Shown here piece by piece: positions 2,707 to 61,546 of a stretch of DNA of 64,000 bases. The notes below the pieces were generated by a model that ran no database searches, was not told the origin of the DNA, and worked only from the letters and a program-made list of their open reading frames with translations. This stretch comes from Roseateles hydrophilus (GTDB lineage Bacteria > Pseudomonadota > Gammaproteobacteria > Burkholderiales > Burkholderiaceae_C): NCBI RefSeq assembly GCF_026712245.1, contig NZ_JAPPUY010000002.1, positions 930,001-994,000 of the forward strand. Direction: 5' to 3'. Numbering within the stretch: position 1 is the stretch's first letter; the number at the start of each line of letters is the position of its first letter. A program made the position numbers and the translations under genes.

Positions 2707-3765
2707 TCAGGCGAAGCCGTCGCCGTCGAAGTTCACTTCGTCTTCGTCGCGGGCGAGCACCGGCGGTGCGTCCTTGGGACGCATGGCCTCCAGCTGCTCG
2801 CGCAGCTTGGCCACCTGGTCCAGCCAGTAGTTGGGCGTGCCGAACCACGGGAAGGCCAGCGGGAAGGCCGGGTCGCCCCAGCGGCGCGCCAGCCAGGCGC
2901 TGTGGTGGATCATGCGCATGGTGCGCAGCGGCTCGATGAGACGCAGCTCGCGGTCGTCGAACTCGGCGATCTGCTCGTAGCCGTCCAGCACGGCGTTGAG
3001 CAGCTGGCGCGCGGCGTCGGGCTCGCCCGGCAGCAGCATCCACAAGTCCTGCACGACCGGGCCGGTGACGGCATCGTCCAGGTCGACGAAATGCGGCCCG
3101 CGATCCGGCGTCCACAGGATGTTGCCCGGGTGGCAGTCGCCGTGCAGGCGCGTGAGCGCCAGGTCGGGCAGGCTGTCGAAGGCGGCCTGGATGCTGTCGA
3201 TGCAGCGACGCGCGGCGTCGTCCCAGTTGGGCGCGATCTCGGGCGGGATGGCGTCGTTGTGCATCAGCCAGTCACGCGCCGCTTGGGCCGGCGCGGCACT
3301 GGCCCAGGACAGGCGGTGCTCGAAGGGGCGGGCGCGCCCCACACCGTGCAGCCGCGCCAGCAGCCGGCCTATCCAGCGCAGCACCTCGGGGTCTTCCAGC
3401 TCCGGCCCGCGCCCACCCTGGCGCGGCGTGACGGCCAGGCGCTGGCCCTGGTAATGGAACAGCGTGGTGCCGCCGTCCAGCAGCCAGGGCGCAGCCACGG
3501 GCACCTCGGCGGCAGCCAGTTCGGCGGCGAAGGCGTGCTCCTCCAGGATCTGCGCGTCGCTCCAGCGGCCAGGCCGGTAGAACTTGGCGACGCCCACGCC
3601 GCGGCCGGGGCGGTCGTCCTCCAGGTGGACCTGCAGCACGCGGTTCTCGAAGGAGTTGAGCTGCAGCATCCGGCCGTCGGCACGCAGGCCGGCGGCATCC
3701 AGGGCGTCGAGCATGAACCCCGGCGTCAGGTCGCCGAAGCTGAGGTCAGGGGTCGCGTGGTGCAT
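2707..3765 (-). CDS. srkA: Stress response kinase A-like serine/threonine kinase (SrkA/YihE family)
   Basis: 352 aa, aminoglycoside phosphotransferase-like kinase fold. It shows the SrkA start (LTPGFMLDALDAAGLRADGR), a likely ATP-binding Lys61 in VAKFYRPGRW, the catalytic loop HGDCHPGN with Asp210 and Asn215, and the metal-binding Asp228 in FVDLDD. The E. coli homologue is a protein kinase that counteracts MazF-mediated death under oxidative stress. Length is close to the family norm (about 330 aa). The gene lies 27 bp after the start of the DUF2726 gene on the same strand, so the two may be cotranscribed. Its cellular target here is unknown. Confidence 0.9.
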   Translation of the reverse strand: MHHATPDLSFGDLTPGFMLDALDAAGLRADGRMLQLNSFENRVLQVHLEDDRPGRGVGVAKFYRPGRWSDAQILEEHAFAAELAAAEVPVAAPWLLDGGTTLFHYQGQRLAVTPRQGGRGPELEDPEVLRWIGRLLARLHGVGRARPFEHRLSWASAAPAQAARDWLMHNDAIPPEIAPNWDDAARRCIDSIQAAFDSLPDLALTRLHGDCHPGNILWTPDRGPHFVDLDDAVTGPVVQDLWMLLPGEPDAARQLLNAVLDGYEQIAEFDDRELRLIEPLRTMRMIHHSAWLARRWGDPAFPLAFPWFGTPNYWLDQVAKLREQLEAMRPKDAPPVLARDEDEVNFDGDGFA

Positions 3766-3792
3766 CCGGCGAGTGTCGCCGGTCGGGCTGGC

Positions 3793-4650
3793 TCAGCGGC
3801 GGCGGGGCCGTTCGGTCGCGTAGCGCGGCGCGTCGACGACGACGCCCACGATGTCGTCCATCATGGCTTCTTCGTCGGCATCGTCCAGCACCGGCAGGCT
3901 GCGCGGGTTGTAGCGCGTGGTATCGAGGCGGCGCGGCGGCGCGCGGCGTTCGATCGGCGGCTGGACACGCGGCGGCGGGGCGGGCATGCGCGGCTGGCGC
4001 GGTTCGGCGTAGCCTGGCTCCTGGCCGCCGAAGGCATGGGCGTCCTGCCACAGCGGCAGCGGCTGCGAGAACGGCGCCCAGTCGCTGCCGAACTCGTCCT
4101 CGCCACCGCGACGGCGCGGCAGGCTGTGCGTTGCAGCCGGCGCCGGCAGCGGGCCGCGCGGGTTGCTGCCTTGCGGCACCAGCAACTGCAGCTCGGCGAC
4201 GCTGGGCAACTGGTCCATCGCGCAGCGCAAATAGCGCACGCGGCAGGCGGACAGCACGGCATGCTTGATCTGCAGGCTGCGCGGCGTGACGCCCCGCTCG
4301 CCTTCCAGGTCGATGGCGGCCAGCACGCGCCCGTTGGGGCTGCAGACGGCAAAGGTCACATGCGAGGCACCCAGCAGGTCGAACCAGTAGCGCACTTCCT
4401 TGGCCTCGGTCGGCTGGCAGAAGCGCACCAGCGGCAGCTTGGACAGCACGACATGGTGTGGAAGGGCTTCACGCAGCAGCCGGAAGACGCGCCGCTCGTC
4501 GGATGTGAACACCGGCCGGGCCGTGAGTGACCACTCGCCAGGGAGGCCTTTGTTGGCGTAAGCCGGCCGCCGCAGCGCCCAGACCAGGCAAATGGCCAGG
4601 CCCAGCACGCAAACAGCCAGCGCGGCGATCCAATAGATGGCGTACGGCAT
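3793..4650 (-). CDS. DUF2726 domain membrane protein
   Basis: 285 aa. Residues 4-26 form one hydrophobic segment (IYWIAALAVCVLGLAICLVW), followed by a DUF2726 domain at about 50-170. Its signature is a basic/aromatic core (SDERRVFRLLREAL, then RYWFDLLG and VLAAIDLEGE), which resembles a nuclease-like or nucleotide-binding fold of unproven function. The C-terminal third is low-complexity, rich in Pro and Arg. The start follows a good GAGGGA ribosome-binding site. The likely topology is a membrane-anchored cytoplasmic domain. No enzymatic role can be assigned. Confidence 0.8.
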   Translation of the reverse strand: MPYAIYWIAALAVCVLGLAICLVWALRRPAYANKGLPGEWSLTARPVFTSDERRVFRLLREALPHHVVLSKLPLVRFCQPTEAKEVRYWFDLLGASHVTFAVCSPNGRVLAAIDLEGERGVTPRSLQIKHAVLSACRVRYLRCAMDQLPSVAELQLLVPQGSNPRGPLPAPAATHSLPRRRGGEDEFGSDWAPFSQPLPLWQDAHAFGGQEPGYAEPRQPRMPAPPPRVQPPIERRAPPRRLDTTRYNPRSLPVLDDADEEAMMDDIVGVVVDAPRYATERPRRR

Positions 4651-4788
4651 GTCCCTCGGGAATTCGGCGGTGTCGCCGACGGACTCGCGGCGTATCGGGA
4701 ATTCAATGTAGCGTAATCAAGGGACAGCTCATTGCTCGCTATTCCTGATTCCCCCGGCATGAGGGGCCCCAGGGCAAGGGGCCGCTGG

Positions 4789-5595
4789 CTACTCCTTGGC
4801 CGCGCGGCCCGAGGCGTCGAAGTGCGACTTGACCTCGGCGACGCTGTCGACGAAGTCGTTCAGCACCCGGGCCTGGCGCTTGAACTGGAAGTCCAACTCA
4901 CCCAGGTGGCGCTCCAGGGCCTGCTCGACCTGGGAGCCGAAGGAGTCGGGCGGCAGGCGCAGCCAGGCGGCGGACTCGCTGCCGTCGCGCTCGACGACGG
5001 CACCCGCTGCGGTCGCGATGTGCAGCATGGGGCGGTTTTCGCTCAGTGCGTGGATGAAGAGCGTGTCGATGCCGCGATTGCGGGCGTGCAGCGCCGCTGT
5101 CTCGAACAGCCGCCGCCCCAAGCCCCGGCCGCGCGATTCGGGCAGCACCGACACGCCGAACTCCGCCATGGTGCGCGGCGGGTCGCCCTGCGCGGGCAAG
5201 CCGTAAGCCAGGTGGGCCATGGCCACCAGCCGCAGCCGGCGGTTGAAGATGCCCAGCACCTCATCGAGAGAAAAGTCCAGTGACAGCGCGTAGCGCCGGA
5301 TCTGCTCGTCGGACGCGGCGTAGCCGAAGCGCAGATAGCGGTCGCGGGCATCGAGTGCGAACAGGTGGTCGATGATGCGGCGGCGGTGGCGGCGTGCCAG
5401 CGAGCGGATGGGCACCCAGGTCGACAGCCGCTCCAGCGCGGCGCGTGCAGTCGCCAGCAGCGGGCCGCTGCCTTCCTCGGGGCGTGCAGCGGCGGCGGGG
5501 GCTGGATGCGGGTCGGGCCCGAACGCCGACAAGACCTCGTCCCAGCCGGTGGCCGGGGCGTCCGATGAGGGGGCTGTGGTGGGCTTGCGGGGCAT
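4789..5595 (-). CDS. GNAT-family N-acetyltransferase
   Basis: 268 aa from the chosen ATG at 5595, which begins MPRKPTTAPS and has AGGAG about 10 nt upstream. An upstream in-frame ATG at 5640 has no comparable site. The GNAT acetyl-CoA loop is visible as RGRGLGRRLFE, preceded by VSVLPES and followed by a motif-B-like ENRPMLHIATAAGA. The N-terminal 60 residues are Pro/Ala-rich. Substrate unknown: the family acetylates amines, proteins or small molecules. It is divergent from the ribosomal protein operon and shares that intergenic region. Confidence 0.85.
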   Translation of the reverse strand: MPRKPTTAPSSDAPATGWDEVLSAFGPDPHPAPAAAARPEEGSGPLLATARAALERLSTWVPIRSLARRHRRRIIDHLFALDARDRYLRFGYAASDEQIRRYALSLDFSLDEVLGIFNRRLRLVAMAHLAYGLPAQGDPPRTMAEFGVSVLPESRGRGLGRRLFETAALHARNRGIDTLFIHALSENRPMLHIATAAGAVVERDGSESAAWLRLPPDSFGSQVEQALERHLGELDFQFKRQARVLNDFVDSVAEVKSHFDASGRAAKE

Positions 5596-14940: not shown

Positions 14941-15831
14941 TCACCCGCCCGCAACGCCCATGGCCACCTGGCCTGCTGGCACGTGGGCGGCGGCGCTCTG
15001 CACATGGCCGGCCTGGTCGTCGAAGAAGAAGTCCGGCTCGAACTCGCGCAGGAACTCCCCCTTGGCCAGGCCACCGAGGAACATGGCCTCGTCCACCTCG
15101 ATCTGCCAGTCCATCAGCGTGCGCAGCGCGCGCTCGTGGGCCGGCGCGCTGCGGGCCGTCACCAGCGCCGTGCGCACCCGCATGCCCGGCGCCTGCTGCA
15201 GCGTGTGCAGCGCCTGCAGCAGCGGCTTGAACGGGCCGGCGGGCAGCGGTCGGTGGGCGTGGTGGCGCTCATGAGCCTGGAAGGCAGCCAGGCCGTCGCG
15301 CTGGAACACCTGCTCGGCCTCGTCGGAGAACAGCACGGCGTCGCCGTCGAAGGCGATGCGCAGCTCACCCGGGTGGGCGGCCGAGGCGCGGGCCGCATCG
15401 GGCAGCACACGTGCTGCAGCCACACCGGCCGCCAGCGCCTGGCGCACATCGTCCTCGTTGGCCGACAGGAACAGCTCGGCCGACAGCGGCCGCAGATAAC
15501 GCCACGGTGACGCGCCACGCGTGAACACGCCGCGCTCGATGGCCAGCCCGTAGTGCTTGGCCGAGCGGAAGACGCGCATGCCCGAGACCGGGTCGTTGCG
15601 CGACAGCACCACCACCTCCACGCGCGGCGTGCCGCCGGTGTTGAAGGCCAGCAGCTTCTTCACCAGCGAGAACGCCACGCCGGGCGGCGCGGGCTCCTCC
15701 ATCAGGCGCTGCTGCAGCGCCATGTAGGCCCGGTCGTCCCCGGCCTCGAAGACGCGGTTCTCGGCTTCGAAATCGAAAAGGGCGCGCGACGAGATCGCGA
15801 CGACGAGCTGACCGGTGAGCGTGGCTGGCAT
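14941..15831 (-). CDS. 5'-nucleotidase (PF06189-type)
   Basis: 296 aa. It matches the cytosolic 5'-nucleotidase family: VVAISSRALFDFEAENRVFE near the N-terminus, IAFDGDAVLFSDEAEQVFQ as the HAD-like aspartate motif, VTARSAPAHERALRTL, and a late FFFDDQAGHV. Members dephosphorylate nucleoside monophosphates. No signal peptide is seen, so it is cytoplasmic. It is transcribed toward the tricorn-like gene with a 55-bp gap and diverges from the solute-binding protein gene at 15892. Substrate preference cannot be read from sequence. Confidence 0.85.
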   Translation of the reverse strand: MPATLTGQLVVAISSRALFDFEAENRVFEAGDDRAYMALQQRLMEEPAPPGVAFSLVKKLLAFNTGGTPRVEVVVLSRNDPVSGMRVFRSAKHYGLAIERGVFTRGASPWRYLRPLSAELFLSANEDDVRQALAAGVAAARVLPDAARASAAHPGELRIAFDGDAVLFSDEAEQVFQRDGLAAFQAHERHHAHRPLPAGPFKPLLQALHTLQQAPGMRVRTALVTARSAPAHERALRTLMDWQIEVDEAMFLGGLAKGEFLREFEPDFFFDDQAGHVQSAAAHVPAGQVAMGVAGG

Positions 15832-15891: not shown

Positions 15892-16674
15892 TTGAAGCGT
15901 CGACACTGCATCGCCGCCTGTATCGCCTGTGCCGGTGGAGCGCGGGCCCAGGCCTTGCGTCCGCTGCCGGCTGCCATCGGTTTTGATGAGGGCAGCCTGC
16001 CCACCATGTACCGCTCGGGCGCGCCCGCGCCGGCTCATGGCATCTACCCGGCCCTGGTGGGCGCGGCGTTCGCGCAGATGGGCCGGCCGTGCGAGCTGCA
16101 GGCCGTGCCCTTCAAGCGGCTGATCAGCGAGACCGACGCGGGCCATGTGCTGGCCGGCGCCGTCATCCGCACGCCTGAGCGCGAGCAGCGCTGGTTGTTC
16201 AGCCAGCCCTACTTTGTCGAGCGGCTGGCGGTGTATGGCACCGGCGCGCCCTTCAGGGGGCTGGACAGCCTGGCCGGCAAGCATGTGGGCGTGATCCGTG
16301 GCTGGTCCTACGGCGAGGCCTTTGACAACGCGCGCCGCCAGGGGCTGTTCCAGTGCGAGGAGGTGGCCGCCGACGTCAACAACTTCGCCAAGCTGCTGCG
16401 CGGCCGCATCGACTACGCCGTGGCCACGGAGCTGGGCGGCCGCATGCTGCAGCAGCTGCCGGCCTATGAAGGCCGGGTGCTGGCCGGCAGTGCGCCGCTG
16501 GGCGCCACACCCATCCACCTGGCGGTGCTGCGCGGCCTGGACGGTGCGGCGGCCTTGCTGCCGTCCTTCAACGCGGCGATGGAGTTGATGCACCGCAGCG
16601 GGCAGGCCGACGCGCTGGTGGCGCGCGAGATCGCGGCAGCGGCCGAACTGGTGAGATTGCTCCCCGCCGGCTGA
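15892..16674 (+). CDS. Periplasmic solute-binding protein, family 3-like
   Basis: 260 aa from a TTG start at 15892, which has a good GGGAG site 7 nt upstream. It begins MKRRHCIAACIACAGGARAQA, a signal peptide ending ARA-QA. The body follows the bacterial extracellular solute-binding 3 pattern: VPFKRLISETDAG, a motif near LFSQPYFVERLAVYGTG, then LAGKHVGVIRGWSYGEAF. No permease or ATPase genes are adjacent, so it is an orphan that may sense or bind a small polar compound. It is the left neighbour of the retron. Confidence 0.8.
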   Translation: MKRRHCIAACIACAGGARAQALRPLPAAIGFDEGSLPTMYRSGAPAPAHGIYPALVGAAFAQMGRPCELQAVPFKRLISETDAGHVLAGAVIRTPEREQRWLFSQPYFVERLAVYGTGAPFRGLDSLAGKHVGVIRGWSYGEAFDNARRQGLFQCEEVAADVNNFAKLLRGRIDYAVATELGGRMLQQLPAYEGRVLAGSAPLGATPIHLAVLRGLDGAAALLPSFNAAMELMHRSGQADALVAREIAAAAELVRLLPAG

Positions 16675-16759: not shown

Positions 16760-19700
16760 ATGCAGAAGTTGGCTCGTGCGACGCTGGCGCGCTCGTGCCC
16801 GTCGGCGCAGCACTGCACGGTCGAGGTGGTGGCGCTGGACCTCGCCGGTGCGGCCCGCCATGTCGTGACGGTGCGCGATGGCGTGCGCGAGTCGGCGCTC
16901 ACGGCCATGCCCTGCGAACTGCCCGAGGCGCGGCGACTCGCGCTGGACTGGCTGCGCCGCCGGCTTGGGGCCGGCGACCGGCTGGTGTCGCAGGACGGCT
17001 TCCCCGAACTGGCTCAGGACGCCGTCGGCCCGCGCATCGTGCCGCTCGCGCCCGCGCCCGTTGCCGCCGCGGTGCAGCCCGCCGTGGCGGCCCTGGTGGC
17101 GCGCTTCCAGCCGGCGCGCTGGAAGCTGGAGTCGCCAGCACGGCGTGCCCGCGCCGCCTGGCGGGTGGCTGAACTCAGTGCCGCCGATGCGCATGGCGCC
17201 AGCCCCACGCAACAGGCCTTGCGCGGCCTGGTGCCGCGCCTGGTGGACTTGCTGGGCAGTGGCGATGACCTGCTGGACCTGTGCCTGGCCGCGGCCATCG
17301 GCCGGCTGGGCGATGCCGGCGCGGCCGAGGCCATGCGCCAGCTCGCGCAGCGCGGCCGCAGCCCGGCCTGCTGCCGCATGGCCCGCCAGGCCTGGCTGAT
17401 GCTGCTGACGCCGGCCCAGCGTGAGGCTGAGGTTGCCACGCTGCTGCCTGGCTGGCGCGACGAGCTGTGCAGCGAGCTGCCAGCCGAGGCACTGCAGGCG
17501 CGCATCGAGACCGCGCTGCCGCTGCGCGGCGCCGCCTGGCCGGCGCTGCTGACCGACTGGTACGACATCGCCTGGGCCGAGCCCGCAGCGCGTGCGGCGC
17601 TGCTGCGGCTGCTGGCGGCCCTGCCGTTGCAGGCGCCGTACTTCCAGGGGCTGCGCTACCTGTACAAGGCGGCCGAGCTGCGGCGCGATGCCGACCTGCT
17701 GGGGCTGCTGCATGCCCGCTTCGAGAACACCACGCCAGCCCTCGGTGCCGCAGCGCCTCGGCGTTATGTGTCGCCCGCCACGGGGGGCTGGTTGCAGCGC
17801 GCCACCGGTGGCGCCCGTGCCCCGGCGGTGGCGTTTGGCGCCCGCACCCGCGACTACCTGCGCCTGCGCGCCTGGCGCCAGCTGCGCCGGCTGGCGGCCG
17901 TGCAGCATCCGTACGCGCCCACCCTGGCCGTGGCCCTGCTGCTGGGGCTGGTGGATGACGAGCAGCCCGCGCCGCGCGAGGAGCAGCGCTGGGAGGTGGT
18001 GGACGGCCGCTACCAGCGCGCGACGCGCCTGCATCACCGCGGCGCCAGCTGGCTGCTGGTGCCCCGCCTGCTGCTGGCCCACTGGCCCGGCCTGTGCACG
18101 AGCCGCCGCGCCATGCGCTGGTGGACGCGTCTGCCGCTGGACACCTCGCGCCCCTTTGCTCAGCGCCCCGAGGCGCTGCAGCCGCTGTGGGATGCCCACC
18201 CCGAAGCCCTGCTGACGCTGGCGCTGCGCAGCCGCAGCTCGCTGGTGCAGGCCGTGGTGGCCCGCGCGCTGCAGGACCATGCAGCCTTCCTGCAGCAGCA
18301 GCCGGCCGAGGTGCTGGGCGCGCTGCTGCGCAGCGACTACGAGACGGCGGCCGGTGTGGGTTTCGGCGCTGCCCGCGAGCGCCTTGCGGCGCTGGCCGAT
18401 GTGGCTGCCCAGGCGCCGTGGCTGGCGCTGCTGGCCACCAGTGCCCATGCGCCGGCCCGCGACCATGCCTTGCTGCAACTCGCCGCCGACCCGGCTGCGT
18501 TCGCGACGCAGGTGGCGCTGGTCGTGGCCCTGTTGCTGGCCGCCGACGGGCGTGTGCGCGCCCAGGCGCGCGGCATGGCCCAGCTGGCACCGGCCGAGCC
18601 GCTGCTGCGCGAGCTGCTCGCCGCGCTGCTGGCGGCCGATGCGCAGGCGCCGGGCGTAGCGGCCGGCGCAGCGCTGGCCGCCCAGTTGCTGCAGGGGCCG
18701 CTGGCGGCGGCCGCGGCTGGCTGGCAGGGCCTGGGTGAGTTGCTGCCGCTGCTGGCGCATCCGTCGGCCGAGGTCGTCGCGCTGGCGGTGGACTGGCTTC
18801 TGCTGCACCCGGCCGGCCTGGTGGTGCTGCCGCCAGCCACGCTGACGCGGCTGCTGGCCGCGCCCGAGGAGGCCTTGCGCGCCTGTGGCGCCCGCCTGCT
18901 GGCGGGCCTGCCGGACGCGCAGCTGGCCGGCCAGGTGGCCCTGCTCGTCGAGCTGGCCCTGCAGCCGGCTGCCAGCGTGCGCGCCGCCGTTGCCCCGGCG
19001 CTGCTGCGCCTGGCCGCGCGCGACGAGGCGCTGGCCCGCACGCTGGCCGACCGCCTGCATGCCGCGCTGTTCCAGGCTGAAGCGGGCGAGGGTCTGCATG
19101 ACGACCTGCTGCGCTGGCTGAGCCAGCACCTGCAAGCGGTGGCGCCCGCGCGCGACCCGTCCGGCGTCTGGCGCGCGCTGCAGGCCCGCAGCGCCGGCGC
19201 GCAGCGCTACGGCGCCTGGGCGCTGCCCGGCCTGGCGCCGGCCGACTACAGCCTGCGCCAGCTCGCCACGCTGGCGCGGCATGCCGACGCCGCGGTGCGT
19301 CGCTGGGCCATGCAGGGGCTGGACACCTGCCTGCCGACGCAGCCCACGCCGGAGCAGGTGGCCGAGCTGCTGCCGCTGGCCGACACCGCCTTCGACGACG
19401 CCCAGGCCTACACCCGCACGCTGTTTGGCGAGCGGCTGGCCGATACGTCGCTGAATGTGGAGCTGCTGATCGCCTGGGTGGACCATCCCCAGCCCTGGGT
19501 GCAGGCGCTGGGCCGCAGCCGCCTGGTGCGCCGCATGAGCGCAGCCGACGCGGCGCTGTGCCTCACGCGGCTGAGCCAGCATCCCAGCCCGGCGGTGCAG
19601 CTGTTCGTCACGCAGTGGCTGCTGGCGCTGCCCACCGACGACCCCGCCGCGCTGGCCCGCCAGCTGCGCGCGCTGACGCCCTATCTGCTGACCGTGCTCA

Positions 19701-19924
19701 GCCAGGTGCACCGCGGCCGCGTGGCCAAGACGCGCGTGACCGAGTTCCTGCGCGCACAGGTGGCGGCGCCCGAGACGGCGGAGGTGGTGGCCGAGATCTT
19801 TGCGCGCCAGGTCGTCACGGCCAGCCTCACCGACAAGCCCCAGTACATCGCCGGCCTGCGCGACATCGCGCGCCGCCATCCGCAGCTGCCGCTGCCCTTC
19901 CTGGCCTGGAACAGCGCCGCCTGA
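16760..19924 (+). CDS. Retron-associated HEAT-repeat protein
   Basis: 1054 aa, Ala/Leu-rich. It consists largely of tandem amphipathic helical pairs of HEAT/ARM type, for example LLPLLAHPSAEVVALAVDWL, LLAAPEEALRACGARLLAGL and LARHADAAVRRWAMQGLD, each about 35-40 residues. No catalytic motif was recognised. The start has GGGAGG 7 nt upstream. The stop is only 3 nt before the SWIM gene ATG, indicating coupled translation. I recall HEAT plus WH-SWIM proteins as partners of the type XIII retron class. Its likely role is a scaffold or effector arm of the RT/msDNA complex, inferred from context. Confidence 0.8.
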   Translation: MQKLARATLARSCPSAQHCTVEVVALDLAGAARHVVTVRDGVRESALTAMPCELPEARRLALDWLRRRLGAGDRLVSQDGFPELAQDAVGPRIVPLAPAPVAAAVQPAVAALVARFQPARWKLESPARRARAAWRVAELSAADAHGASPTQQALRGLVPRLVDLLGSGDDLLDLCLAAAIGRLGDAGAAEAMRQLAQRGRSPACCRMARQAWLMLLTPAQREAEVATLLPGWRDELCSELPAEALQARIETALPLRGAAWPALLTDWYDIAWAEPAARAALLRLLAALPLQAPYFQGLRYLYKAAELRRDADLLGLLHARFENTTPALGAAAPRRYVSPATGGWLQRATGGARAPAVAFGARTRDYLRLRAWRQLRRLAAVQHPYAPTLAVALLLGLVDDEQPAPREEQRWEVVDGRYQRATRLHHRGASWLLVPRLLLAHWPGLCTSRRAMRWWTRLPLDTSRPFAQRPEALQPLWDAHPEALLTLALRSRSSLVQAVVARALQDHAAFLQQQPAEVLGALLRSDYETAAGVGFGAARERLAALADVAAQAPWLALLATSAHAPARDHALLQLAADPAAFATQVALVVALLLAADGRVRAQARGMAQLAPAEPLLRELLAALLAADAQAPGVAAGAALAAQLLQGPLAAAAAGWQGLGELLPLLAHPSAEVVALAVDWLLLHPAGLVVLPPATLTRLLAAPEEALRACGARLLAGLPDAQLAGQVALLVELALQPAASVRAAVAPALLRLAARDEALARTLADRLHAALFQAEAGEGLHDDLLRWLSQHLQAVAPARDPSGVWRALQARSAGAQRYGAWALPGLAPADYSLRQLATLARHADAAVRRWAMQGLDTCLPTQPTPEQVAELLPLADTAFDDAQAYTRTLFGERLADTSLNVELLIAWVDHPQPWVQALGRSRLVRRMSAADAALCLTRLSQHPSPAVQLFVTQWLLALPTDDPAALARQLRALTPYLLTVLSQVHRGRVAKTRVTEFLRAQVAAPETAEVVAEIFARQVVTASLTDKPQYIAGLRDIARRHPQLPLPFLAWNSAA

Positions 19925-19927
19925 GTC

Positions 19928-21610
19928 ATGCAATTCCGCTACCAGTACTACGGTGCCAGCACGGTGGACGACAGCGCCACGGCGCAGGCCTTCCGGCTGG
20001 CGCCCGACACGCTGCGCCCGCCCACCCACTTCCAGGGCCAGCTGCGCCGCGACGCGCACGCGCACCTGGTGTTCCGCGAGGCGCTGTCGGCGCTGCATGC
20101 GGTGGTGGTGAGCGACCAGCGCCCGCGCGGCCGCAACCCGGCGGCCTACCAGGCCTGGCTGCAGGCCCACGAGGGCGAGCTGCTGGCCCGCTTCATGGCC
20201 CAGGCGCAGACGCTGAAGGCGCGCGCGGCGGCAGCCACTGCCGAGCTGGCCCAGCTGCGCGAGAAGAAGGCGTCGCTGCTGGCGCCGTTCTACAAGGCGC
20301 GCCAGCGCTACTTCGACTGGCTCTACCAGGCCCACCGCGACACCTGGTTCGTGCTCGACCCGGTCATCACCGTGCACCCCGAGCGCCTGCTGTTCGAGGC
20401 CTTCAGCCAGGATGAGTCCAGCTACTGCGCCGTCAGCCTCTCTCACGAGCTGTTCGAGCGCGTGGGTGACATGGCCTGCGGCACCACCAACATCGACTAC
20501 TCGGCCAGCCTGTACGAGGAGTTCCAGAAGGTCCGCGACTACAAGGCCACGCAGTTCGCCGTGGACCCGACGGGCTTCACCGTCGCCACCGGCGACGACC
20601 CGGCTTTCGTGGAGGAAAAGATCGACCTGCCTGACAGCTGGGTGCGCGGCTTCCTGCAGGTCTCGAGCGCAATGACGCTGCCGGCCACCGTGCTGGAGCT
20701 GCACCCGATGGACCTGCACAACCTGTGCAGCCTGCTGCGCCAGCGCAAGGAGCGCGCCGGGCCGCGCTCGCTGCGCTTCGAGCTGGTGCCGGGCCAGCCG
20801 GCGCGCCTGGTGCTGGAGCCGTGGAACCTCACGCTGACCGCACGACGCAGCGCCATCGTCGGCGCGCCGCTGGCCGCGCCGCGTGCGGTGCGGCTGTGGG
20901 GGCGCCGCCGGCTGTTGACGCTGGAGCGGCTGATCCCGCTGGCCACCCGGGTGCGCGTGCACTTGCTGGGCTCGGGCATGCCCAGCTTCTGGGTCGTGGA
21001 GATGGGCGGTGTGACCGTCACGCTGGGGCTGTCGGGCTGGACGGCCAACGACTGGTCGGCCGCCGGGCGCTTCGACCTGCTGCAGGCGCGGCACGAGGTC
21101 AGCGAGGCCAGCCAGCTGGCGGTGGCCGGGGCCCTGCAGTCGACCTGGCTGGCCACACCGGCCGAGCTGGCCGCACGCACCGGCCTGCCGCAGGCCGATG
21201 TGGATGCGGCCATGACGGCCTGGGTGCAGGCCGGTCGCGCGATCTTCGACCTGCCCACGGGCCGCTACGCGTGGCGTGAGCTGTCGCGCGAGCCGCTGCC
21301 GCTGAACACGCTGCGCTTTGCCAGCCCTGAGGAGTCACAGGCGCTGGCGCTGGTGCACGCGCGCGGCGTGCGCCTGGGCGGCATCCGCCGTGAGGGCGGG
21401 CGCCTGCTCATCGAGGGCACGGTGAAGGCCGGCGAGCGCAGCTACACGCCGCGCCTGACGTTGAATGCCGACGAGCAGCTGCAGGACGGCCACTGCGGCT
21501 GCAACTTCTACAGCCAGAACAAGTTGCGCCGCGGCCCATGCCAGCACCTGCTGGCCTTGCGCCAGGTGGCCCAGCCGCAGCTGGACGATGCGAGGACCCA
21601 GGGGGAGTGA
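19928..21610 (+). CDS. Retron-associated winged-helix SWIM zinc-finger protein
   Basis: 560 aa. A short coiled-coil-like stretch lies at about 84-116. A probable winged helix spans about 398-448 (TPAELAARTGLPQADVDAAM, then AGRAIFDLPTGRYAWREL). The C-terminus carries a SWIM zinc finger CxC-x12-CxH with Cys523, Cys525, Cys538 and His540 (HCGCNFYSQN, then GPCQHLLALR). SWIM and winged-helix modules usually bind nucleic acid or protein partners, so it could read the msDNA or the RT. It lies 3 nt after the HEAT gene stop and ends 28 nt before the retron RNA. Function as effector or sensor is inferred. Confidence 0.85.
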   Translation: MQFRYQYYGASTVDDSATAQAFRLAPDTLRPPTHFQGQLRRDAHAHLVFREALSALHAVVVSDQRPRGRNPAAYQAWLQAHEGELLARFMAQAQTLKARAAAATAELAQLREKKASLLAPFYKARQRYFDWLYQAHRDTWFVLDPVITVHPERLLFEAFSQDESSYCAVSLSHELFERVGDMACGTTNIDYSASLYEEFQKVRDYKATQFAVDPTGFTVATGDDPAFVEEKIDLPDSWVRGFLQVSSAMTLPATVLELHPMDLHNLCSLLRQRKERAGPRSLRFELVPGQPARLVLEPWNLTLTARRSAIVGAPLAAPRAVRLWGRRRLLTLERLIPLATRVRVHLLGSGMPSFWVVEMGGVTVTLGLSGWTANDWSAAGRFDLLQARHEVSEASQLAVAGALQSTWLATPAELAARTGLPQADVDAAMTAWVQAGRAIFDLPTGRYAWRELSREPLPLNTLRFASPEESQALALVHARGVRLGGIRREGGRLLIEGTVKAGERSYTPRLTLNADEQLQDGHCGCNFYSQNKLRRGPCQHLLALRQVAQPQLDDARTQGE

Positions 21611-21638
21611 TGAGGAATTCCGTGGCTACACTGCCGGC

Positions 21639-21650
21639 GAGTGCAGTGCG
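21639..21650 (+). repeat. Retron a1 repeat
   Basis: GAGTGCAGTGCG is the perfect reverse complement of 21856-21867. It forms the base of the folded retron RNA and sets its 5' end. Confidence 0.87.
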
Positions 21651-21710
21651 TGGGCTCTTGCAACCCGGGCGGTGTTTCGCCGCCCTTGTGAACTGCCGTT
21701 CTACGCACCA

Positions 21711-21822
21711 CGGGGTCCGTCTTCACTGTGCCGGGCTGCCACCCGTAGCGCCGTGCCGATGGGGTTCGCTTCGAACGCACAGGCGCTACGGGTGGCGCCC
21801 GGCGTCGAGTGGACAGACCCCG
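21711..21822 (+). other. msd hairpin (predicted template of the retron DNA)
   Basis: Nested perfect arms are: CGGGGTC (21711-21717) with GACCCCG (21816-21822); GTC/GAC and CACT/AGTG (21719-21727 with 21808-21814); GCCGGGC (21730-21736) with GCCCGGC (21797-21803); GCCACCCGTAGCGCC (21738-21752) with its exact complement at 21782-21796; GTGC/GCAC; and a tip GTTCG-CTT-CGAAC (21764-21776). The single T21737 bulge and two small internal loops are the only interruptions of the lower stem. The exact ends of the reverse-transcribed part are not known. Confidence 0.8.
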
Positions 21823-21855
21823 CCCCTCAAGCCCTGCGGGCTCTTCGATGAGAAG

Positions 21856-21867
21856 CGCACTGCACTC
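21856..21867 (+). repeat. Retron a2 repeat
   Basis: CGCACTGCACTC is complementary to a1 over all 12 bases. It ends 29 nt before the RT start codon, the usual placement for a retron RNA. Confidence 0.87.
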
Positions 21868-21896
21868 ACCTTTTCTGCCTCGAGCGCGGAGGCTGC

Positions 21897-23777
21897 ATGA
21901 CCGAGCGCATGCCCACCCGCGCGGAGCTGCTCGCCCGCATCGCGGCCAGCAGCAAGGACGCCGTCGTTCTTGCCGAGATGCAGCGCCTGGGCTACTGGCC
22001 CCGCGATGCCGACCAGCCCACCATCGAGGCCGCGCTGCTGCAGCGCGAGGCCGAACTGCACCAGGCCTTGCAGCAGCTGCAGCAGGAACTGCAGGTCAAG
22101 GGCGATCCGCAGGCTGCGCTGCAGGCCATGCGTCGCGAGCGCATGGCCCAGGCCCGCGAGCAGCGCGAGGCACGCGCGCAGGCCCGCGAGCGCGGCCGCT
22201 ACGAGCGCGCGCTGCGCTGGCACGCGACGCGCCAGACCACGGCGGGCTACCTGGGCGAGGGCGTGTCGGGCGGCCTGGGGGCCGAGACCGACCCCGAAGC
22301 CGCCAAGGCCCGGCTGCAGGCGGCCGGCCTGCCCGCGCTGACCACGCCGCTGGAACTCGCCCAGGCCATGGGCCTGAGCCTGCCGGAGCTGAAGTTCCTG
22401 TGCTTCCACCGCGAGGTGGCGCGCGGCACGCATTACCGGCGCTTTCACCTGCCCAAGAAGACGGGCGGCGTGCGCACCATCTCCGCCCCCATGCCGCGCC
22501 TGAAGCGTGCGCAGTACTGGGTGCTGGACAACCTGCTCGCCAAGGTGCCCGTGCACGCGGCGGCGCACGGCTTCCTGCCGGGGCGCAGCATCGTCAGCAA
22601 CGCGCGGCCGCACTGCGGGCAGGACGTGGTGATCAACCTCGACCTGAAAGACTTCTTCCCCAGCGTGCACCAGCCGCGCATCAAGGGCGTTTTCCGCGGC
22701 CTGGGCTATGGCGAGGCGGTGGCCAGCCTGCTGGCGCTGCTGTGCAGCGAGAACGCCTGCGACGAGCTGACCGTGGATGGCGAGCTCTTCTTCGTCGGCG
22801 GCAAGGGCCGTGAGCGCGTGCTGCCGCAGGGCGCGCCCACCAGCCCCATGCTCACCAACATCCTGTGCCGCAAGCTGGACCGCCGGCTGCAGGGCCTGGC
22901 CGCCAAGCTGGGCTTTGCGTACACACGCTATGCGGACGACCTGACGTTCTCCGCCGCGGGCGAGGCCGCGCAGCGCGTCGGCAAGCTGCTGCGCCAGGTG
23001 CACCACGTGCTGCGCGACGAGGGCTTCACGCCGCACCCCGACAAGCAGCGCGTCATGCGCCGGGGGTCGCGCCAGGAGGTGACGGGCGTGGTCGTCAACC
23101 ACCAGCCCTCGGTGTCGCGCGACGAGCGCCGCCGCCTGCGCGCCGCGCTGCACCGTGCGGGCCAGCAAGGCCTGCAGGCCGCCACCTGGCAGGGCGCGCC
23201 GGCCACGCGCGACACGCTGGTGGGCTACGCGCGCTTCGTGCACATGGTCAACACCCAGCAGGGGCAGGCGCTGTTGCAGCGGGCGCTGGCACTGCCGGGC
23301 GCAGCGGCCGCGCGGCGCCCCGACGCCTTCCGTGCCCAGGCCGCGCAAGGCCTGGCCCCGGCGCGCCGGCAGGGCGACTGGTGGCAGGTGGCGCCGCCGC
23401 CCGAGCCGCAGCTGGCGCTGACGGCAGGCCAGCTGAAGGCGGCGCGCCAGCAGCGCATTAATGCCGAACGCGCGGCACGCCAGCCGCCGCGCCAGGAGCG
23501 CTCAGCGGCGCCGCCACGTGCCGGGCAGGCCACGGCACCCACGGCCGAGCCCATCGGCACGAGTCTTGGCACGCCGCCGCCCGTGCCGTGGGGGCGCTAT
23601 GGCGCGCAGCTGCTGGCCATGCTGTTGATGTCCATCAGTCACCGCAGCCTGTGGTTCCTCATCCTGGGCCTGGCCTGGGTGGCGCTGTCGCTGAAGCAGC
23701 ACAAGCCCTCGTGGCTGCGCTTCCTGGTGGGGGTGTTCTTGATCGGCCTGGTGGTCCAGGTGATCGACCCGCGCTAG
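21897..23777 (+). CDS. Retron reverse transcriptase with C-terminal membrane segments
   Basis: 626 aa, start set by GGAGG 4 nt upstream. Residues 45-105 are a charged coiled-coil-like region. The RT domain (about 165-455) shows retron hallmarks: NARPH (235-239, the NAxxH motif), motif A with Asp249 in INLDLKDFFPSV, LPQGAPTSPMLTN (309-321), catalytic YADD (345-348), and VTG (395-397). It lacks group II intron maturase or HNH parts. A Pro/Ala-rich linker (500-565) leads to two hydrophobic segments at about 570-598 and 607-622, which would anchor the enzyme in the membrane. It primes on the RNA at 21639-21867. The stop overlaps the convergent gene. Confidence 0.95.
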   Translation: MTERMPTRAELLARIAASSKDAVVLAEMQRLGYWPRDADQPTIEAALLQREAELHQALQQLQQELQVKGDPQAALQAMRRERMAQAREQREARAQARERGRYERALRWHATRQTTAGYLGEGVSGGLGAETDPEAAKARLQAAGLPALTTPLELAQAMGLSLPELKFLCFHREVARGTHYRRFHLPKKTGGVRTISAPMPRLKRAQYWVLDNLLAKVPVHAAAHGFLPGRSIVSNARPHCGQDVVINLDLKDFFPSVHQPRIKGVFRGLGYGEAVASLLALLCSENACDELTVDGELFFVGGKGRERVLPQGAPTSPMLTNILCRKLDRRLQGLAAKLGFAYTRYADDLTFSAAGEAAQRVGKLLRQVHHVLRDEGFTPHPDKQRVMRRGSRQEVTGVVVNHQPSVSRDERRRLRAALHRAGQQGLQAATWQGAPATRDTLVGYARFVHMVNTQQGQALLQRALALPGAAAARRPDAFRAQAAQGLAPARRQGDWWQVAPPPEPQLALTAGQLKAARQQRINAERAARQPPRQERSAAPPRAGQATAPTAEPIGTSLGTPPPVPWGRYGAQLLAMLLMSISHRSLWFLILGLAWVALSLKQHKPSWLRFLVGVFLIGLVVQVIDPR

Positions 23778-24550
23778 CGGTAGCCCACCTGGCGGCGGAA
23801 GTCGTCCAGCAGCCGGGCGTAGCTGCCGTCGCGTCGCATCTGCGCCAGGCCGCGCCCGAAGGCCTGCGCCAGCGCGGGGCCGTCCGGGTGCGTCTTGGCG
23901 AAGGCGATCCAGAACGCGTCGGCGCTGACGATGCCGCGTCGCACCACCTTGCCGCGGAACTCGGGGCTGGCGTCGATGCGCATCCAGCCCGGCGTGCGGT
24001 TCAGCAGGATGTAGTCCACGCGGCCGGTGAGCAGCATGCGCAGCAGGTTGGTGTCCGAGGTGGCCGTGAAGCGCTGGATGCGCGGGTCGCGCATGAACTC
24101 GGTGGGGTAGGTGTAGCCGTTGGTGATGGCCACGCGCTTGCCGCGCAGGTCGGAGAGCCGCAACTCCGGGCCTGCCTCGCCCGCCCGGCCGAAGATGGAC
24201 AGCTCCTCCTCGAACATGGGCGGCTGGTGCCAGAGGTAGTCGTCGCGGTTGTCGTCGGTGATGGTGGCGTTGAAGCAGCCGGCCACCTGGGCCGCCTTGG
24301 CCATGCGCATGCAGCGCGCGAAGGGCACGGTGACGAACTGCGGCGTGAGGCCCTGGGTGGCGAGTGCGGCGCGGATCAGCGTGACGCTGAAGCCCTTGGG
24401 TGGCACCTCCTGCGGGCTGCTGGCGCTCTCGGCCGCGCTGTAGGGCGCCCAGTCGTCCTCGCCGGCCAGCAGCACGGGGCCGGCTGCCCCTGCGGCCAGG
24501 GGAAGCGCCAACGTCATTGCCAACAGGCATCGCCACGTCATTGCCGACAT
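23774..24550 (-). CDS. Periplasmic solute-binding protein, family 3-like
   Basis: 258 aa with a signal peptide (CLLAMTLALPLAAGAAG). Solute-binding 3 features include DDWAPYSAAE, PPKGFSVTLIRAALATQG, VPFARCMRMAKAAQVAGCFN and LRGKRVAITNGYTYPTEFM. The gene starts 10 nt after the gspF stop on the same strand, so it is probably transcribed as the tail of the type II secretion operon although it has no known place in that machine. Its stop overlaps the retron RT stop (convergent). No permease or ATPase is nearby, and the ligand is unknown. Confidence 0.82.
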   Translation of the reverse strand: MSAMTWRCLLAMTLALPLAAGAAGPVLLAGEDDWAPYSAAESASSPQEVPPKGFSVTLIRAALATQGLTPQFVTVPFARCMRMAKAAQVAGCFNATITDDNRDDYLWHQPPMFEEELSIFGRAGEAGPELRLSDLRGKRVAITNGYTYPTEFMRDPRIQRFTATSDTNLLRMLLTGRVDYILLNRTPGWMRIDASPEFRGKVVRRGIVSADAFWIAFAKTHPDGPALAQAFGRGLAQMRRDGSYARLLDDFRRQVGYR

Positions 24551-60838: not shown

Positions 60839-61546
60839 ATGGCTCGCCTTCCCCGATTGATCCTGCCGGAGCTCCCGCATCACGTCATCCTGCGCGGTAA
60901 CAACCGCCAGGCGATCTTCTTCAGCGATCTTGATCGCCAGCAGCTGCTGGCGACCCTGGCGGAGTCGGCGGCGCTGTACCGGGTGGCCATCCACGCCTAC
61001 GTGCTGATGGACAACCACCTGCACCTGCTGCTAACGCCGCCGTCGGCCGATGCGCTGAGTCGCATGATGCAGTCGGTGGGGCGTCGTTACGTGGGGTGGT
61101 TCAACGCACGCCACCAGCGCAGCGGCACCCTGTGGGAGGGGCGCTTCCGAGCCGGGCTGATCGAGGGCGATCGGCATCTGCTGGCCTGCATGCGCTACAT
61201 CGAGCTCAACCCCGTGCGTGCGGGCATCTGCACTGCAGCGGCGGACTGGCCTTGGTCCAGTGCCGCGCATCACCTGGGCCTGGCGCGCAATGTGCTGATC
61301 AGCGAACACGAGATGTACTGGCAGCTCGGCAACACCCCGTTTGAGCGCGAGCATGCCTACCGGGAGTTCCTGGAGCAGGGCGTCCCGAGCAACGAAAGGG
61401 CGCAGTTCACCGAAGCGGTGCTTCGCGGCCGGCCGGTGGGCAGCGAGGGGTTCTTGCGGTCGCTGGCGGTGGACCACGCGGCGGTCGTGGTGGCGCGGCC
61501 TCGGGGGCGGCCGCGGAAGCCAAAGTCTGTCGCTGACGCCTCTTGA
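60839..61546 (+). CDS. REP-associated tyrosine transposase (RAYT, Y1/HUH type)
   Basis: 235 aa. The single-strand nuclease motif HxH (His60, His62) in MDNHLHLLLTP is followed by the likely catalytic Tyr84 in GRRYVGWFNARHQRSG. YIELNPVRAGI and PWSSAAHH are family hallmarks. RAYTs move or copy REP palindromes; most are single-copy and domesticated. Flanking inverted GGGGTC(A/G)GAGTC repeats support activity or ancestry here. A basic C-terminal tail (RPRGRPRKPK) is typical. The gene sits between dgt and gltB, with no target duplication seen. Confidence 0.92.
   Translation: MARLPRLILPELPHHVILRGNNRQAIFFSDLDRQQLLATLAESAALYRVAIHAYVLMDNHLHLLLTPPSADALSRMMQSVGRRYVGWFNARHQRSGTLWEGRFRAGLIEGDRHLLACMRYIELNPVRAGICTAAADWPWSSAAHHLGLARNVLISEHEMYWQLGNTPFEREHAYREFLEQGVPSNERAQFTEAVLRGRPVGSEGFLRSLAVDHAAVVVARPRGRPRKPKSVADAS

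Follow-up and report, generated by a model that had tools for sequence, protein, structure and literature searches.

A 64,000-nucleotide stretch of the Roseateles hydrophilus genome (contig NZ_JAPPUY010000002.1, positions 930,001 to 994,000; hereafter the window) carries what is, from sequence comparison, almost certainly a type XIII retron, intact-looking, complete and otherwise an ordinary member of its little-studied class. On one strand, the locus holds genes for a large HEAT-solenoid protein, a SWIM zinc-finger protein and a reverse transcriptase (RT), with a structured RNA in the 286-nucleotide gap (21611-21896) that separates the SWIM gene from the RT gene (Table 1). A preliminary description of the window had listed these four parts, and the three plus-strand open reading frames (ORFs) and the RNA lie where it placed them. 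It named the parts correctly, but it overlooked a WGR-derived N-terminus on the HEAT protein, a hydrophobic tail on the RT and a possible clamp-like fold in the SWIM protein.

Table 1. Features of the retron locus (window coordinates).
Feature	Position	Strand	Remarks
HEAT-solenoid protein, WGR-derived N-terminal domain at residues ~1-80 (suggested)	16760..19924	+	1054 residues; WGR_XIII 858.9 bits
SWIM zinc-finger protein	19928..21610	+	560 residues; SWIM_XIII 703.8 bits
Possible -10 element TACACT	21627..21632	+	TANACT in 12/16 at these columns of alignment A1 (columns 3-8)
a1 repeat	21639..21651	+	pairs with a2; compensatory change in 7/13 a1/a2 pairs
Candidate branching guanosine	21660	+	within CTTGC, invariant in 26/26 RNAs (alignment A2)
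msr hairpin	21667..21685	+	helix 4, 100% of cells paired
msd long stem, apical hairpin 21764-21776	21710..21823	+	helices 5-7, 25/43 pairs compensated
a2 repeat	21855..21867	+	pairs with a1
Retron reverse transcriptase, RT domain at residues ~140-460	21897..23777	+	626 residues; RT_XIII 580.4 bits
C-terminal hydrophobic (probable membrane) segments, RT residues 565-626	23589..23777	+	hydropathy; beyond the RT_XIII match

Type XIII retrons were reportedly defined by Mestre et al. in 2020. We assign the locus to this class because the PADLOC models match its proteins over nearly their full length (WGR_XIII, residues 1-1051; SWIM_XIII, residues 1-549; RT_XIII, residues 2-497) and because the gene set is conserved in relatives. 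The RT_XIII, SWIM_XIII and WGR_XIII genes that make up the PADLOC type XIII set occur here all together, and the set recurs in Beta-, Alpha- and Gammaproteobacteria, which bears out the statement in the preliminary description that HEAT and winged-helix SWIM proteins are the type XIII partners. HEAT and SWIM genes accompany the RT at the same locus for 26 of 29 type XIII RTs; of the three others, the contigs of L009 and L016 end too soon and the flanks of L067 were not fetched. The gene order is HEAT-SWIM-RNA-RT, and three Thiothrix loci have RNA-RT-HEAT-SWIM, with RT and HEAT genes that overlap by 4 nucleotides and a G+C-rich hairpin between RNA and RT (L017, L018, L019). A Variovorax retron that PADLOC assigns to type XIII is mentioned in PMC11953036, a paper that lists the type and gives no mechanism for it.

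The RT carries NAxxH (N235-A-R-P-H239), YADD (345-348) and VTG (395-397), as had been noticed before, and the letters of these motifs are invariant across a 22-RT alignment. NAxxH (region X) and VTG (region Y) are retron RT motifs according to PMC6868368. Pfam RVT_1 matches residues 186-398, and among PDB sequences the enzyme matches Retron-Eco1 (E 1.2e-42) and Retron-Eco2 (E 3.6e-32). The next-best PADLOC model is RT_other, at 341 bits, and the group II RT model reaches 60.5 bits (cut-off 300) against 580.4 for RT_XIII; by these model scores the enzyme falls outside the group II intron and diversity-generating retroelement RTs, in line with the earlier call of a retron. The 80 retained of 111 RT relatives on viral contigs share at most 41% identity with it, and none of them matches its first 121 residues.

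Judged from its pairing pattern, the region beside the RT is an msr-msd RNA with complementary a1 and a2 ends. The segment 21611-21896 folds at -160.2 kcal/mol (z -7.0), and none of 200 shuffles was equally low. RNA regions came from 28 loci, the window included; alignment A1 holds the 16 closer Burkholderiales (the window and 15 relatives), and A2 holds 26 RNAs, L009 and L016 being left out. In A1, on which compensatory changes were counted, 98.6% of cells pair, a percentage favoured by the derivation of the structure from A1 itself. Compensatory change occurs in 36 of the 78 predicted pairs, covariation was as high in none of 500 shuffles on any of five measures, and pairing falls to 34-49% when partners are slid by one to three columns. 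The paired ends sit at the limits of the msr-msd-like RNA first proposed (21639-21867), and that proposal now has covariation behind it. Near a1, G21660 is a candidate branch point; its CTTGC context differs from TAGC, the common motif at the branching guanosine of retrons (PMC6868368). The aligned TANACT box may be the -10 element of a promoter for the RNA. A search of Rfam gave no match to the RNA at the gathering threshold. With three frames open, catalytic motifs intact and RNA pairs kept, there is very little chance that the locus is degenerate and non-functional.

An AlphaFold model of the HEAT protein has a predicted local distance difference test (pLDDT) score of 86.6. It opens with a small bbbb-a-b domain and continues as a solenoid of HEAT helices, and its Foldseek matches include solenoids of this kind from SF3B1-type, CAND1, PP2A-A and importin chains. 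Pfam HEAT_2 (E up to 1) is found in 9 of 15 aligned HEAT members, and the window's own protein reaches no Pfam HEAT model; the fold and these family members uphold the HEAT-repeat reading of the 1054-residue protein. Alignment A4 contains N-terminally short Thiothrix HEAT proteins, and the apparently interrupted HEAT protein of L005, a metagenome-assembled genome in which the gene yields two separate matches (~3267-4986), was excluded. The three Thiothrix N-termini match Pfam WGR above the cut-off, and hhalign aligns with them, at 97.8%, a profile of 22 other HEAT N-termini that includes the window (residues 1-77). Single rows of that profile, such as L045, do not resemble the WGR rows, and the window N-terminus has no Pfam match, WGR included, at E 1. 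Together, these comparisons suggest that the N-terminus of the HEAT protein is a decayed WGR domain below Pfam detection; such an ancestry may explain both the PADLOC name WGR_XIII and the omission of the domain from the preliminary description.

The SWIM protein is divided into a long helix or coiled coil (~71-135), a possible clamp-like core (~144-368), a winged helix (~393-449) and the SWIM finger (523-540). The CxC-x12-CxH motif reported earlier is exact (C523xC525-x12-C538xH540), with four ligands that are invariant in a 16-protein alignment (A3); Pfam SWIM (E up to 1) is found in 15 of the 16 members, the single miss being the window's own protein. The winged helix, also reported earlier, is recovered in the AlphaFold model, and 3 of 16 members match Pfam DprA_WH. 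That model has a mean pLDDT of 62.9, with blocks in residues 241-370 that range from 62 to 86; its best-predicted part, residues 254-368, runs b-a-bbb-b-a-bbb, the order of elements that characterizes a DNA-clamp domain. A predicted helix (326-338) has at its start the invariant arginines of R322-L-W-G-R-R-R328. Foldseek against the PDB gave 262 matches at E <=0.001 (best E 9.7e-8), and all 50 of the matches listed are clamp entries (PCNA, PCNA with clamp loader, and one viral clamp). Among 50 matches listed from the viral library, 23 carry the name PCNA, beta clamp/DnaN or processivity factor, and three more, of the UL42 and ORF59 type, belong with these; most of the others bear uninformative names, and one is labelled a ribosomal protein. 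We regard it as an even call whether the SWIM core, in which the model predicts this fold, is indeed built like a DNA sliding clamp, and we treat the prediction as a lead.

Relatives of the SWIM protein also occur apart from retrons. SWIM genes that match SWIM_XIII at 165-176 bits lie beside large DUF6493-type genes on Diaphorobacter, Asticcacaulis and Streptomyces plasmids, and tblastn detected no RT in the 17-kb stretches around these three genes; a SWIM-type pair can thus exist without a retron in the stretches fetched. The Diaphorobacter protein is 30% identical to the window SWIM protein over residues 144-550 (E 5e-32) and does not match its coiled-coil part (71-135). The HEAT protein was considered as a DUF6493 relative and set aside (hhalign probability 0.4). 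In the plasmid loci, the SWIM gene stands beside one or two DUF6493 genes (L033, 7752-14085; L034, 7782-12070; L036, 7830-12069). Near them are integrase and toxin-antitoxin genes in L033 and a Fic-type toxin gene in L036. The plasmid SWIM and DUF6493 genes are possibly an undescribed system.

One reading of the SWIM protein is that it serves the RT as something like a processivity factor, making or protecting the multicopy single-stranded DNA (msDNA), and that the HEAT/WGR protein is the killing subunit. Herpesvirus processivity factors, which act as monomers, are among the clamp-like Foldseek matches, and the HEAT protein is large and bears a WGR-derived domain. The SWIM relatives in stretches without an RT speak against a partner devoted to the RT, and we think this reading improbable.

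The RT_XIII match stops at residue 497 of the 626-residue RT, and ~130 C-terminal residues lie beyond it. Two segments of strong hydrophobicity (572-590 and 605-623) lie within the final 60 residues, and by eye the first of them extends further N-terminally. Tails were scored by Kyte-Doolittle hydropathy over 19 residues (at least 1.6), in the region that starts 50 residues after YADD. Of the 29 type XIII RTs, 25 were positive: 25 of 25 in Alpha- and Betaproteobacteria and 0 of 4 in Gammaproteobacteria (Thiothrix, Methylococcaceae), a count that excludes L048/G417, judged not to be type XIII, and the duplicates L038 and L043. Under the same rule, none of 81 control RTs with a complete C-terminus was positive (73 distinct tails, highest value 1.33), although only 25 of the 73 distinct tails have at least 100 residues and many control RTs end early. 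The controls came from 83 loci (80 on viral contigs, L002, and L032/L048, which are one RT), and two RTs without YxDD were measured over their last 150 residues. The loop that precedes the final segment bears a net charge of +2 to +4 in all 21 betaproteobacterial tails, and in three of four alphaproteobacterial tails the terminus is a basic stretch (+3 to +8). By the positive-inside rule, these charges fit three segments in Betaproteobacteria and two in Alphaproteobacteria, with the RT in the cytosol. On hydropathy, the tail probably enters the membrane in both classes, and it may serve as an anchor.

An alternative is that the tail itself is the effector, RT oligomers perforating or depolarizing the inner membrane while the SWIM and HEAT proteins act as sensor and scaffold. 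The tail is present in every alpha- and betaproteobacterial RT examined, the charge of its last loop is positive throughout in Betaproteobacteria, and Pfam finds no catalytic toxin domain in either the HEAT or the SWIM protein; moreover, retrons with transmembrane effectors are mentioned in PMC13405049. The tail sequence is, however, poorly conserved in the 22-RT alignment, and four gammaproteobacterial RTs are tail-less, three of them at Thiothrix loci that keep the RNA, HEAT and SWIM. We think it improbable that the tail is the killing part. The four tail-less RTs form one clade in the RT tree, whose outgroups lie on very long branches and give it no firm root; the tail may have been either gained or lost. 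Replacement of the tail by a separate membrane gene in Thiothrix was rejected, since none lies inside the operon, where the RT and HEAT genes overlap; the check covered the inside of the operon, and some hydrophobic ORFs are listed beyond SWIM.

The retron is sparsely distributed. Searches with RT_XIII at E 1e-100 gave matches in 10 of the 250 family genomes searched, counting the present one. A sample drawn from the phylum gave 5 in 398, including the present genome, another that the family count already contains, and G417/L048. The family of G390 gave 3 in 199, two of which were already known; we call this last family alphaproteobacterial because the RT of its member G276 is almost the same as one from a Methylobacterium bullatum record. 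G417/L048 was rejected as type XIII (38%, no partners found). Within the genus, SWIM_XIII matched 2 of 20 genomes, the present one and G642, from which L003 derives, and L003 is the only one of 30 loci tested that has flanking genes in common with the window, the 30 including two duplicates and several loci with short flanks. In seven genus-mates fetched, the retron site between gspF and a 5'-nucleotidase gene holds other DNA, 0.7 to 5.7 kb. The locus thus comes and goes. Phage or plasmid carriage was considered and rejected: SWIM had no match in 50,697 phage records and matched 7 of 72,556 plasmid records, one of which, 2.8 Mb in size, is matched over 80% or more. A defence hotspot was likewise rejected, as the ORFs at this variable site are, by eye only, transporter, chemotaxis-like and metabolic genes.

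These data also bear on whether the locus has a housekeeping or regulatory role rather than one in defence. Its neighbours are ordinary genes, and in the RT tree the supported forks follow host lineage (deep forks are weak, and the four outgroup retron RTs, on very long branches, are not usefully placed). Presence in so few genomes of the genus and family, at a variable spot, argues against such a role, as does the proven defence function of other retron types (PMC13158370). We consider a housekeeping role quite unlikely, and think it likely that the retron acts in anti-phage defence, as the preliminary description inferred.

Other observations concern the surroundings and the rest of the genome. 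The retron is bracketed by a pair of SBP_bac_3 solute-binding-protein genes (15892-16674 and 23774-24550), which lie on opposite strands. The same genome has a second retron-like RT (L049, 9632-10807, minus strand; G000 contig C6, ~225701-226876) whose best PADLOC match is RT_V at 342 bits, and a gene of the RtcR/PspF CARF-AAA-HTH kind lies near it. Elsewhere in the window are a Betaproteobacteria toxic small RNA (RF02278; 38359-38421, minus strand; 61.2 bits, above the gathering score) and an ORF at 60839-61546 (plus strand) that by eye, from its first residues, resembles a REP-associated transposase.

How might such a retron act? We found no published mechanism for type XIII retrons in the open-access literature. 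In other retrons, msDNA-RT units hold effectors in check until phage action on the msDNA releases them (PMC13158370), and by analogy the SWIM-HEAT pair may be the effector here. The RT would begin synthesis from a guanosine close to a1, probably G21660, and copy the msd stem into branched msDNA. The RT-msDNA unit would bind the SWIM-HEAT pair and keep it inactive and, in Alpha- and Betaproteobacteria, the C-terminal tail would tether the complex to the inner membrane. A phage that binds, cuts or modifies the msDNA would free the pair, whereupon SWIM, by means of the predicted clamp-like body together with the winged helix and the zinc finger, could engage DNA, either the cell's own or that of the replicating phage, with HEAT as scaffold; replication would stop, and the infected cell would die or stall. 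We put this guard mechanism forward tentatively, as a whole more doubtful than probable. Its most specific form is less likely still: a membrane-anchored retron would keep watch over a mimic of the sliding clamp, and release would let this mimic ride on replicating DNA or block it.

Several observations weigh against this proposal. The four gammaproteobacterial RTs lack a tail and no separate membrane gene lies inside the three Thiothrix operons, so type XIII retrons as a class cannot depend on a membrane step. For the clamp fold there is a single model, with a mean pLDDT of 62.9; its superposition on clamps is poor (root-mean-square deviation of ~9-12 Å for nearly all listed matches, template modelling score by target of ~0.4-0.5), and when PDB sequences were searched with a profile to E 10, none of the five matches was a clamp. 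The stand-alone plasmid pair parallels SWIM only, as kinship between the HEAT protein and DUF6493 is unsupported. Finally, PADLOC assigned none of the ten neighbouring proteins to a known system; the 5'-nucleotidase (14941-15831, minus strand) matches the candidate PDC-S08 at 427.5 bits, but it is present in all seven retron-less genus-mates fetched. The RT tail and the clamp-like prediction each offer a concrete hypothesis for this class. Guarding of a clamp mimic, if it occurs, would give retrons a novel means of killing the cell or of sensing that a phage is replicating, and the stand-alone SWIM relatives would be its retron-free cousins. The RNA alignment, for its part, delimits the region for work on msDNA and could be a starting point for new retron tools in high-GC bacteria.

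Comparison with known systems shows both shared and differing features. The likeness to PCNA and UL42-type clamps lies in the predicted fold of the SWIM core; the profile search of PDB sequences found no sequence similarity, and we claim no membership of that family. Neither the SWIM nor the HEAT protein has a PDB sequence match at E 1. The stand-alone SWIM and DUF6493 pairs share a homologous SWIM protein (residues 144-550 in Diaphorobacter) but differ in the unmatched coiled coil and the lack of an RT in the stretches fetched. Retron-Eco1 (Ec86) and Retron-Eco2 (Ec67) have an RT domain homologous to that of the window RT, the match being limited to this domain; their partner proteins are different. 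The Thiothrix and Methylococcaceae loci L016-L019 share the RT and RNA, and the three Thiothrix loci also share the WGR-HEAT and SWIM proteins; none has an RT tail, and those of Thiothrix have the RT ahead of its partners and a recognizable WGR domain. Relative to the PADLOC type XIII models (RT_XIII, SWIM_XIII and WGR_XIII / HEAT-ARM_XIII), the window retron has ~130 extra C-terminal RT residues with hydrophobic segments and an N-terminal WGR apparently decayed below Pfam detection, while with type XIII retrons in general it shares all three protein matches and an RNA that adjoins the RT.

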